From: Amyelois transitella
Lineage: Eukaryota > Arthropoda > Insecta > Lepidoptera > Pyralidae
Assembly: GCF_032362555.1 (NCBI RefSeq)
Contig: NC_083520.1
Coordinates: 3,100,001 to 3,164,000 of the forward strand
Direction: 5' to 3'
DNA length: 64,000 nt
In this document: positions 43,075 to 49,941 of the stretch, piece after piece
Numbering within the stretch: the first letter of the stretch is position 1
Layout: the number at the start of each line of letters is the position of its first letter
Program-made: the position numbers and the translations under genes
Notes under the pieces: model-generated
Told to the model about the DNA's origin: nothing
What the model saw: the letters and a program-made list of their open reading frames with translations, nothing else
Databases searched by the model: none

Positions 43075-44787
43075 CTAATTTTTTTTATCACAATGACACG
43101 ACTGACCGGAAAACAATTTGTTACAAAACTCATCCAATTTTATTCTTTGACATAAATCTTTGAATGACCACTTGGTTTTTTGTATCGCGGCGCTGTCCGT
43201 GCTTCCCAAAGTGGAAAACAATTTGTCTGATAGCTCGTCCGATATTTCAATGATCCTGCAAATTTTGTCTAAACGCACCAAATCTTCTATTGAATTTGTC
43301 AAATCTGCTATATTGATAACTTGAGATTTTCTTTCGTGTATTTGAAATGAGTTATCGGAATCGCTAGCACTGACGCTATCAAGTTTATCATATAAATCAA
43401 CTTTTCTACCGGTTTCACTGTTTCCAGATGCAGTCAATGTTGAACTTGCACATTTTGAACTGTCTGGCACAATTATCACGGGATCTGTTAAAAGTCTGTT
43501 GAGATTATTCAAAATTTCCGCCGGTATCTCTAGACTTTTGTTAGGTTTATCAAAAGATTTTGTTGCTGTAAAACAGTCCGTGTTAGTCGTGCTTTTACTA
43601 TGACTGACTTTTGGCGATTGGTCATCTGATGCTGTTCTAATGCATTTTCCTGGTGCTGTTGCATTGTCTGACGAAGTCAAATCTAAGGATTTAATTTCAA
43701 CTTCTACTTGAGATTTCTCTTCCAATTTTGACAAAATAATTTCATCATTAAATACACAGGCTTGACTAGTTCTATTTTTGACTGGCGAAACAAACCCGCT
43801 ATCATCAATGTTTTCTGGTGATTTCTTTAAAAATTGAGTCTTATTATTGTCTTTATATTCATCAACTTTGTGTCCGTCACAAGTCACGTCGTCAGTATGT
43901 GGCTTGCCTATAAAATTTAGTTCAATGTTTTGTGCCAACCCATTTATTAAATTCGTAATCGTTTGAACTACTTGATCTTGAAATAAATGATCAACTTTCT
44001 TTTTTTTCAAACAGCTGGTTTTAACGTCATTTGAAAACTGACTGAAGTCGGCGCTATTGCCAGAGACCTTTAGCTTCAGCGAATCGCTATCCGTTTGATT
44101 TGTGCTTATAAAAGCCGAACTTTTTTTGTTATAGTCACTGAGGTTATCTCTTCTGAAATTATTCTTACTACTGTTTATTTCCTCAATATTGGACATATAA
44201 TCTCCAGAAATATCAGAAATAAGGTTAAACGTAGGAGACTCCTTTATTATATTACCATCAAACGATTTTTTATTATCAATGTCACATATTTTTTTCTCTC
44301 TAGCCTTTTCTTCTAAGGCATTCTCCGATAAACTGATATCACGAATTTTATTACATTTGCTCAACAAGCTTTCGGTAATACTCACCATTTTGGAAAATTC
44401 TTTTTTTACATTTTCTAAACGCTGGTGGGCTTTTACACTGTGAATTTGACTTGTATGGGGAGTTGCTTCATCACATTTGTGACAACTGGAACTCTGCGCC
44501 TTCACCCGTTTGTTAGTTTCGTTATCATCATTCCAAATTCTGAATATCGCATCACTATTTGCTGTTGTTTCTTGGGAGTTGCCTGAATAACTAATAGACG
44601 CCGGTTTCCTCAACTTTACCGGTCGTCCTGGCGATCTACAATGAACTAGCTGTGATGACGAATGGCTTAAATCACTCTTGATTTCGTTATTTTTATCCTC
44701 AGCTTTATCATTCTGTTTCTTAATAGCTGTACGTTTTGTGGCAAAATTCATTATGTTTCTTGGGTCTGGTAGTAGGAATTGTCTCTC
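43075..44787 (-). other. Novel C-terminal extension of the GAPDH paralogue
   Basis: About 570 codons in the same exon as the end of the GAPDH fold. Composition is polar with charged runs (for example LKKKKVDHL). The final ~100 residues look more ordered: repeated Ile/Leu-rich segments ([32 protein letters not shown]) and a terminal [15 protein letters not shown] then CHCDKKN. No domain recognised. Confidence 0.75.
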
Positions 44788-47700: not shown

Positions 47701-49941
47701 ACTAATAAAGACTGATTAGAATAACTAATTTAGTTTATTTTTTTACTCTGGGGGCAATATAATCCTCGGGATCATTTTAACCCTACCCCAGGAATCATTT
47801 TACCCACCCCGGTGTACAAAATGATGATGATAGTAGAGGTTTGGAAAATCACAAATAAAACAAAATATAAAGCCGCCCAAAAAGAGTTGTATTCCAAAAT
47901 ACGGCCAATTAAATGAACTATCCAAAGGTTTTTACAGATTTACTCTAGCTTCAATACTTTGGCCACAATTAGCCTTCTCCCTTAGAGGGATCATTATGTA
48001 CACCTTTCCCCTATACTGCATTGCTATGGCAATAAAAGCCTCCCATCATATATAGGTATACAACTATTTACAAACTATCTTGGAGAAATAAAGCAAATGA
48101 TATTGAAAACTACAAATATTTCAATATTTACCAAATATTAAACAGTGTAAAATGGCTGATAATGATGTTTAATGTGGCATGTGAGTTGTAAACGTAAGTA
48201 AGGTGCTGTACCAAAAATATGTCGCAGGATGAAAAATAAAATAATAAACAGGTACTTCGAACATTGTACCTGAATCCAGGTCAGAGTGGTTGACTCCTAA
48301 TATGACCATGGGAACATCTGCACTTGGCGCTGTTACAATCACTCTTTTGACACTTTCACTAGCCAGGTGACCCTAGAAAATATACGAAAAAAAATCCGTA
48401 GCTCGACAACAGAACCTTTACCTAAATAGTCATTCCATACTAATCAGCATCGTTGGTCAGGTGGTTAAGGTATGCGAAGTAAAAAGCCAAGGGTCAAATC
48501 CTTAGGAGACAGGTACAATAATGGTTTTCTGAATAACGTTAGTTCAGTTATTTGTTGATAACCGTTGCGATGGTCATAAGCGGGCTCTAAGGGAAAGAAT
48601 CTGGATTTGACACTATTTCAAAATAACGTACTTTCCTGTCATTCAAAACATATAACACACATCCCCAATGCCTTACGGATACATCACTAAGCTTAGTTTA
48701 CTGCATGTGTGAAGTTTAAACTGCAAAAAGAAAACATACGGAAGCCTTTTGAAGGCTGGTAAAGATTCCCGACGCTTCAACCACATACTGCACTTCCGCC
48801 GACTGCCACGGGACGTTCGCTGGCAGCTTCTCGTGAAAAATCTTGATTTTTGCATCTATTAAACGTTTTAATTAATACTGGCACGAAATATTTTTTCCAG
48901 TCCCCGTAGCAAGGCACGCGCGACGACGTTTTTATCGCGCGAAAAACTCAGTATTCCGTCTCAAGTCATAAGAAAAATCGAAACAACGAGTTTTTCGTCC
49001 GACAAAAACATCACGCGTGCCATGCCACGGGAGCAGGCGTTAATAAAATGCCGAATATGGTGAGGTAAATTTTGTGAGCATCACATTGTATGTAAGTACA
49101 ACGGGGCAGGAGCAGGAACCGACGGCTCTTCTTGGAGGTAGCAGCTATCCACACTTCCTGTACCTCGCTACATCCAAGCCTAGAACTGATTACAGAAGAA
49201 TTTGAAGCCTCAATTGAACTGGGTAGCCCAGCGGCTTATATTTTTCACTGCCACTGAATGTGGTATGCACTAATGTAGTGCAGTGCCTTTGCAAGCTTTA
49301 TATTTCTAGACGCCCTGTGATAAAGATGTTCCTGATCATATAAGTAGATATGAAACGAAGGAAAAAAAAAGAATGACGCACCGTCTACGGTAATTTCACT
49401 TTCAGTATGGATGATACTCCCTCTAAATTTCCCATGCGTTGAGTCAAATTTTATCAAGTAACAAATGTACTCAACATCAATAGCAGGATCATTGATGGCT
49501 GCTACCTAGAAAAAAGGCTATAGGCTACTATAATAAATCTACAAAAGAATATTACTTTGCCGTACAAAAAAAGGACCACTCCATCTCTTTCCCATGGATG
49601 TCGTAAAAGGCGACTAAGGGATAGGCTTACAAACTTGGGATTCTTTTTTAGGCGATAGGCTAGCAACCTGTCACTATTTGAATCTCAATTATATCGTTAA
49701 GCCAAATAGCTGAATCTGGCAATTCAGTCTTTTCAAGACTGTTGGCTCTGTCTACCCCGCAAGGGATATAGACGTGACTATATGTATGTATGTACAAAAG
49801 AATAAATGGAAAGTTAGTCATTTCTTCATTTAAACTCTTGCAGACTTAATTGCTCACCTCCAAGTCTGGATTTTGGTGGCAAGTTCTAAAAATAACTCTG
49901 CCAATTCGCCCAAAACCGTTTATACCAACTTTAATGACCAT
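43075..49941 (-). CDS. GAPDH paralogue with Cys-to-Ser active site and ~570-aa C-terminal extension
   Basis: Seven minus-strand exons, all GT-AG and phase-consistent: 49941-49858, 49505-49382, 48855-48740, 48372-48270, 46419-46259, 45467-45307, 45037-43075; 903 aa. Residues 1-333 form a full [15 protein letters not shown] (NAD-binding glycine motif), [55 protein letters not shown]. The active-site loop reads [11 protein letters not shown], so the catalytic Cys is Ser152, while His179 and the flanking Ser/Thr are kept. Loss of the thiol should abolish normal dehydrogenase activity. Residues 334-903 match no family I know: polar, Ser/Lys/Asp/Asn-rich, probably disordered, with an AT-hook-like [11 protein letters not shown] (GRP at 387-389), hydrophobic helical patches and a Cys/His-rich end. 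A 903-codon frame kept open across seven exons argues for a working gene, not a pseudogene. Confidence 0.88.
46523..48011 (+). mobile_element. pogo/Tigger-like DNA transposon, internally deleted
   Basis: Lies in the GAPDH-paralogue intron between the 48270 and 46419 exon ends, on the opposite strand. Terminal inverted repeats of about 25 bp (GGGGATAGGTGTACAAAATG and GGGGAAAGGTGTACATAATG) are flanked by TA on both sides (46521-46522 and 48012-48013), as in Tc1/mariner/pogo elements. Near both ends there are repeated ATGATCC/GGATCAT motifs, including a palindrome around 46917-46942, which look like subterminal binding sites. The single ORF is a short transposase N-terminus. Confidence 0.85.
47089..47423 (+). 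CDS. Truncated pogo-type transposase: N-terminal psq-like HTH only
   Basis: ATG follows directly on an acceptor-like TTTGCAG. The 111-aa frame begins [19 protein letters not shown] and contains [21 protein letters not shown], the helix-turn-helix of pogo/psq transposases, then a second region ([15 protein letters not shown]) that starts the CENP-B-type part. It stops after [10 protein letters not shown]. The DDE catalytic domain, normally several hundred residues more, is absent. The frame has no internal stops, so it could still make a DNA-binding fragment. Confidence 0.75.
48449..48600 (+). repeat. tRNA-derived SINE-like repeat in GAPDH-paralogue intron
   Basis: TTGGTCAGGTGGTTAAGG (A box) and AGGGTCAAATCC (B box) are followed by a body containing ACCGTTGCGATGGTCATAAG. 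Confidence 0.5.
49552..49792 (+). repeat. Family A SINE-like repeat with 12-bp target-site duplication
   Basis: Full-type copy, flanked by TACAAAAGAATA at 49540-49551 and 49793-49804. It sits in the first intron of the GAPDH paralogue. The duplication independently confirms the family A ends inferred at 9924. Confidence 0.85.

Follow-up and report, generated by a model that had tools for sequence, protein, structure and literature searches.

We analysed a 64,000-nucleotide window of the Amyelois transitella genome (NC_083520.1, positions 3,100,001-3,164,000; coordinates below are window positions) that holds two genes for glyceraldehyde-3-phosphate dehydrogenase (GAPDH): a canonical intronless copy and a seven-exon paralogue in which the GAPDH domain is followed by a 570-residue C-terminal tail. 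When its seven minus-strand exons are joined, the paralogue gives a frame of 903 codons plus a terminal stop, with no internal stop. All six introns are GT-AG, with phases 0, 1, 0, 1, 0 and 2, and across the 903 codons and six introns we found no stop, frameshift or damaged splice site that would mark a pseudogene. The original prediction had placed seven exons at 43075-49941, with in-phase GT-AG introns and an uninterrupted 903-codon frame, and its exon count, coordinates, splice sites and frame all proved correct. The sequence supports the presence of a paralogous GAPDH gene whose C-terminal tail is very long, and the two genes are laid out as follows.

49858-49941, minus strand: paralogue exon 1, with the predicted ATG (residue 1) and the Rossmann motif; matches Gp_dh_N
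49382-49505, minus strand: paralogue exon 2, NAD-binding domain; matches Gp_dh_N
48740-48855, minus strand: paralogue exon 3, NAD-binding domain; under the Gp_dh_N cut-off alone, over it as part of the spliced protein
48270-48372, minus strand: paralogue exon 4, end of the NAD-binding domain, assigned by alignment
46259-46419, minus strand: paralogue exon 5, whose catalytic loop reads SSASSTLYC where the canonical gene has SNASCTTNC; holds Ser152, His179 and S-loop residues 194-195
45307-45467, minus strand: paralogue exon 6, the remaining S-loop and the Arg236 region
43075-45037, minus strand: paralogue exon 7, the end of the GAPDH domain, the entire tail and the stop codon
43078-44787, minus strand: the tail, 570 residues (334-903), within exon 7
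43060-43065, minus strand: AATAAA hexamer seen in the sequence, 9 bases past the paralogue stop
53263-54261, plus strand: canonical GAPDH, 332 residues in a single open frame without introns, Cys149 intact

Because the tail shares exon 7 with the C-terminus of the GAPDH domain, no splice is needed to join the two. At the other end, the predicted ATG aligns with the canonical start, and the model has no proline-rich N-terminal extension of the kind found in GAPDHS, a sperm GAPDH considered below; an upstream exon is possible. Two of the introns hold sequence of other kinds. Intron 4 contains a plus-strand frame (47049-47423) that matches a Psq-type helix-turn-helix (E 0.00014) and is probably transposon debris. 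Intron 1 contains one of six copies of a 34-base stretch (959-992, 9331-9364, 10121-10154, 23158-23191, 49744-49777 and 55284-55317) that differ by 0-3 mismatches where none would be expected by chance, and which looks like a dispersed element.

The paralogue and the canonical gene are divergently oriented, with starts 3.3 kb apart, and are the only two GAPDH loci found in the genome (327 megabases, 33 contigs). A whole-genome Pfam search returned three matches to the GAPDH C-terminal domain and four to the N-terminal domain, all inside these two genes; the search was run exon by exon, and the counts are lower bounds. In local alignments, the canonical protein is 79.0% identical to 1u8f and 77.8% identical to 1ihx, which we take to be human and lobster GAPDH, respectively. 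Another glycolysis gene lies near both GAPDH genes: minus-strand frames at 10129-11991 match 6PF2K and His_Phos_1, which fits a 6-phosphofructo-2-kinase/fructose-2,6-bisphosphatase.

The GAPDH domain and its constraint

Over residues 3-332, the paralogue can be aligned along its whole length with GAPDH chains of known structure in the PDB (lowest E 4.2e-105), and the spliced protein scores over the Pfam cut-offs for both Gp_dh_N (120.9 bits, E 3.1e-35) and Gp_dh_C (158.6 bits, E 1.2e-46). With both domains present at full length, it belongs to the GAPDH fold family, and it is identical to the canonical protein at 158 of 332 aligned positions. The 'complete GAPDH fold' of the original prediction stands as far as length and domains go, but the catalytic cysteine, on which that prediction was silent, is gone.

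This loss was read against 81 reference rows, comprising the canonical gene and the best 80 of 582 bacterial GAPDH loci. (Top among those 80 in identity to the insect canonical enzyme, at 71%, is a GAPDH from a Clostridiales metagenome bin, L009:201-1196.) Catalytic Cys149 is present in all 81 rows, and the paralogue has Ser152 in its place (SSTLYC against SCTTNC), so that it lacks the cysteine within SCTTNC that marks a type I GAPDH enzyme (EC 1.2.1.12). The surrounding residues have changed as well. In canonical numbering, T151L, N152Y, T174S and Q182L all fall in columns invariant in 81 of 81 references, and N146S in a column with Asn in 80 of 81. Consistent with this, the paralogue scores 341.8 bits against the NCBIfam type I GAPDH equivalog TIGR01534, below its cut-off of 367.2, whereas the canonical gene, as a control, scores 440.2.

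Many coenzyme- and phosphate-site residues are retained. The paralogue keeps GINGFGRIG, Asp32, Gly97, His176, Thr179, Arg197, Thr208, Arg231, Asn313, Glu314 and Tyr317 in canonical numbering, eight of which are Asp34, Gly99, His179, Thr182, Thr213, Arg236, Asn318 and Tyr322 in its own. It thus has the histidine and the phosphate-site arginine and threonines of a type I enzyme: we take His179, Thr182, Thr213 and Arg236 to be the catalytic-base, substrate and phosphate residues, and the roles of the other kept residues are likewise assumed. Overall, we read the paralogue as a catalytically dead GAPDH that has kept many coenzyme- and phosphate-site residues.

A rather unlikely alternative is that the paralogue is still an enzyme in which catalysis falls to Ser152 or some other residue, perhaps with a different substrate, and that its tail anchors the protein in the manner of sperm GAPDHS. 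The four retained residues at the catalytic and phosphate sites would fit such an enzyme, but oxidation of glyceraldehyde-3-phosphate needs the cysteine thiol to form the covalent intermediate, that thiol is absent, and the otherwise invariant T151, N152 and Q182 have changed alongside it. Serine at the catalytic position also occurs in PDB entries 6lgk and 6lgm, which we presume were engineered from 6lgj; in the alignment these differ from the paralogue in having no tail and an otherwise intact loop. The row for 2vyn_D, presumably rat GAPDHS, keeps the catalytic cysteine, unlike the paralogue.

The domain shows signs of past constraint. Among 67 near-invariant columns (at least 97% of the 81 references), the paralogue keeps 53, compared with its 158 identities to the canonical protein over all 332 aligned positions, and loses 14, including Cys149 and the five nearby positions named above. 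We then considered 223 columns in which the canonical gene agrees with both 1u8f and 1ihx and the paralogue is ungapped, classed by agreement among the 80 bacterial rows. Retention in the paralogue falls from 60 of 80 columns with at least 95% bacterial agreement, through 48 of 92 in the intermediate class, to 21 of 51 at under 60% (highest against lowest class, Fisher test, p 1.9e-4). Across 329 aligned codons, it differs from the canonical gene at 135 first, 87 second and 218 third positions. Free drift throughout would lose columns evenly; the uneven loss and the codon-position pattern are both signs that purifying selection acted during some period following the split of the two copies. 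The paralogue nevertheless sits on a very long branch, 1.74 changes per column as drawn and 1.85 in the program's list of long branches, against 0.12 for the canonical gene, in a tree that used 13 of the 80 bacterial rows and in which its placement is unsure; we claim no date. Our preferred reading is that it is an old, fast-evolving GAPDH duplicate.

The same evidence bears on whether the gene is a decaying duplicate, functional until recently and now under relaxed selection, with its frame yet to be broken. The length of the branch and the loss of 14 of 67 near-invariant residues would both be expected of such a gene. At 0.05 substitutions per site, however, a neutral tail would have gained about four stops, with a chance of 0.017 of gaining none, although at 0.01 it would stay intact with a chance of 0.44. 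Given also that all 903 codons and six of six splice sites are intact and that conserved columns are preferentially kept, we consider decay unlikely.

The C-terminal tail and known GAPDH extensions

At the tail's base composition, the chance of meeting no stop over 571 codons is 1.2e-20, and the remaining five frames of the region contain 23 to 82 stops each. The frame asymmetry of base composition is 0.0254 in the tail, 0.0406 in the GAPDH part of the paralogue and 0.1129 in the canonical gene; none of 294 overlapping windows from regions chosen as presumed non-coding reached the tail value (maximum 0.0067). Third-position GC content in the tail is 31.8%, close to the 35.4% of the window. Judged by its open run and frame asymmetry, the tail is coding.

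Ser (13.5%), Lys (10.9%), Asp (9.1%) and Asn (8.1%) are abundant in the encoded sequence, whose net charge is -1. Most charge-hydropathy windows plot as disordered, although islands of higher hydrophobicity occur near residues 581-641, 741-801 and 821-881, and we read the tail as mostly disordered. Scanning for motifs turned up a KKKK cluster and KRVK, together with single instances of GRP, CxxC and LxxLL, from which we claim no nuclear or DNA-binding function. The tail contains no tandem array at a score of 30. Direct repeats comprise a 34-nucleotide pair, 76% alike (43108-43141 and 43213-43246), in frame and 35 codons apart, and a 15-nucleotide pair. As protein, the two C-terminal segments of about 17 residues align better than 1,999 of 2,000 shuffles, although the pair was picked after being noticed; the best ungapped self-match of the whole tail falls at another position, and 33 of 40 shuffled tails score at least as high. 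Because of this post hoc choice and the whole-tail result, we treat the short repeat at the tail end as a lead only.

Searches for relatives of the tail covered its own genome, prokaryote genomes, viral contigs and protein-family and structure databases. Against its own genome, the tail matched only itself (E up to 10, nine candidates scored), and it had no Pfam match over cut-off and no match in NCBIfam, PHROGs or the PDB (E up to 5). A pattern-based method found 13 stretches fitting the tail in prokaryote genomes and five fitting exon 7 in viral contigs, none of which was confirmed. Among candidates below the Pfam cut-off, Anillin (tail residues 319-405; E 0.0039, 18.1 bits against 24) was set aside, with a control that was itself weak: two fragments, each holding about half of that stretch, gave nothing. 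UPF0242, DUF7835 and DivIC were likewise all below cut-off.

These results also speak to a reading in which a second coding gene fused to this one, its product now performing the function as the tail, and the GAPDH part survives as a relic, providing the promoter and a soluble domain. Fusion would account for 570 open codons, which are very unlikely to have arisen in one step from non-coding sequence; for that reason, the tail was either coding before the join or grew gradually. Yet no donor or relative turned up in any of the genome, protein-family and structure searches, the join has no intron and the GAPDH part shows constraint, all of which make fusion improbable.

The two known GAPDH extensions compared here are shorter, and one lies at the other end of the protein, as the original prediction had held. 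GAPDHS (GAPD-2), the sperm form of mammals and reptiles, resembles the paralogue in being a duplicated GAPDH with a compositionally biased extension, but its extension is N-terminal, proline-rich and 74 residues long, where that of the paralogue is C-terminal and 570 residues long; it attaches the protein to a structure, and since GAPDHS supplies energy, it is an active enzyme (PMC3224139). Plastid GapB is, like the paralogue, a GAPDH with a disordered C-terminal extension; that extension is CP12-like, spans about 30 residues and regulates the active enzyme through a disulphide, in contrast to 570 residues with no Pfam match over cut-off here (PMC4436894).

Among insects, one survey found two GAPD sequences in 3 of 10 species, which makes a second GAPDH unremarkable for an insect; the passage on these copies mentions neither a lost cysteine nor a long tail (PMC3224139). 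The Drosophila GAPDH paralogue CG9010 took part in the Adh-Twain gene fusion, in which the partner is an Adh retrocopy; the excerpted text does not mention a long tail (PMC3449122). PMC11288676 mentions GAPDH zero times. In the literature searched (among the titles and abstract openings listed, with most subscription papers outside this scope), we found no description of a GAPDH such as this one, and one may be annotated in some moth.

Other features of the window

A nested inverted repeat occupies 18992-20330, with arms at 18992-19360 and 19962-20330 (369 nucleotides, 99%) and at 19353-19601 and 19722-19970 (249 nucleotides, 100%). This nearly perfect 1.3 kb palindrome is either a fold-back element or an assembly artefact. 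At 14164-16050 (minus strand), a 628-codon frame matches DUF1759 and, below cut-off, also has a gag-like match; it is probably a retrotransposon remnant. Rfam and ARAGORN agree on a tRNA-His (gtg) at 26176-26247.

Function of the paralogue

The most likely reading is that the paralogue is a working, presumably expressed gene encoding a GAPDH pseudoenzyme that bears a long and mostly disordered arm. In its fuller form, in which a coding, old and fast-evolving GAPDH duplicate no longer catalyses the glycolytic reaction and would instead act as a tail-carrying tether or scaffold, we give this reading about an even chance. The tail is many times longer than the two GAPDH extensions compared above, of 74 and about 30 residues (PMC3224139, PMC4436894). 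Under this proposal, the GAPDH domain would still fold and bind NAD(H), may associate with itself or with canonical GAPDH and would thereby carry long disordered tails; the more hydrophobic islands of the tail, including any close to its end, may bind partners, the protein acting as a tether or scaffold and not as an enzyme. A tissue-restricted role, for example in testis, is a guess.

Several observations weigh against this proposal. Residues that we place in or next to the coenzyme site are altered (F34A, S95A, T96S, A180P, D312E and G316S in canonical numbering), although several of these changes occur in some references, including Ser at the T96 position in 6 of 81. The S-loop of the paralogue is two residues longer than that of the canonical gene and of 79 of 80 bacterial rows (one of 80 has the same length), and longer by the same two than all five PDB rows shown; the extra residues, 194-195, lie just ahead of the loop end, and a longer loop makes it less likely that the protein assembles or binds coenzyme in just the way the enzyme does. 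Between the two copies, the NG86 method gives a nonsynonymous divergence (dN) of 0.44 and no valid synonymous divergence (dS); with dS undefined, the retention tests speak for constraint at some point after the split and not for present selection. Finally, a single-sequence AlphaFold2 model of exon 7 (mean predicted local distance difference test score (pLDDT) 35.4, predicted template modelling score (pTM) 0.21, no residue at or above a pLDDT of 70) supports nothing; it also failed to recover the GAPDH part, and its best blocks of ten residues, with pLDDT values of 51-56, lie at the C-terminal end.

The original prediction went further, suggesting that the fold had become an NAD- or RNA-sensing scaffold. 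Loss of the catalytic cysteine does make it likelier that a metabolic fold has been put to another use. NAD sensing is compatible with a coenzyme site that is partly kept and partly changed, and RNA sensing is unsupported. One long-shot extension is that an oligomeric, NAD(H)-binding pseudoenzyme core displays several 570-residue arms, so that redox or glycolytic state could control a multivalent scaffold, possibly in mixed assembly with canonical GAPDH.

GAPDH is a textbook moonlighting enzyme, and since one protein performs both jobs, its non-catalytic functions are difficult to disentangle from glycolysis. A natural cysteine-less GAPDH that keeps much of the coenzyme pocket, beside an intact canonical gene, would let a knock-out probe a non-glycolytic role while leaving glycolysis untouched.

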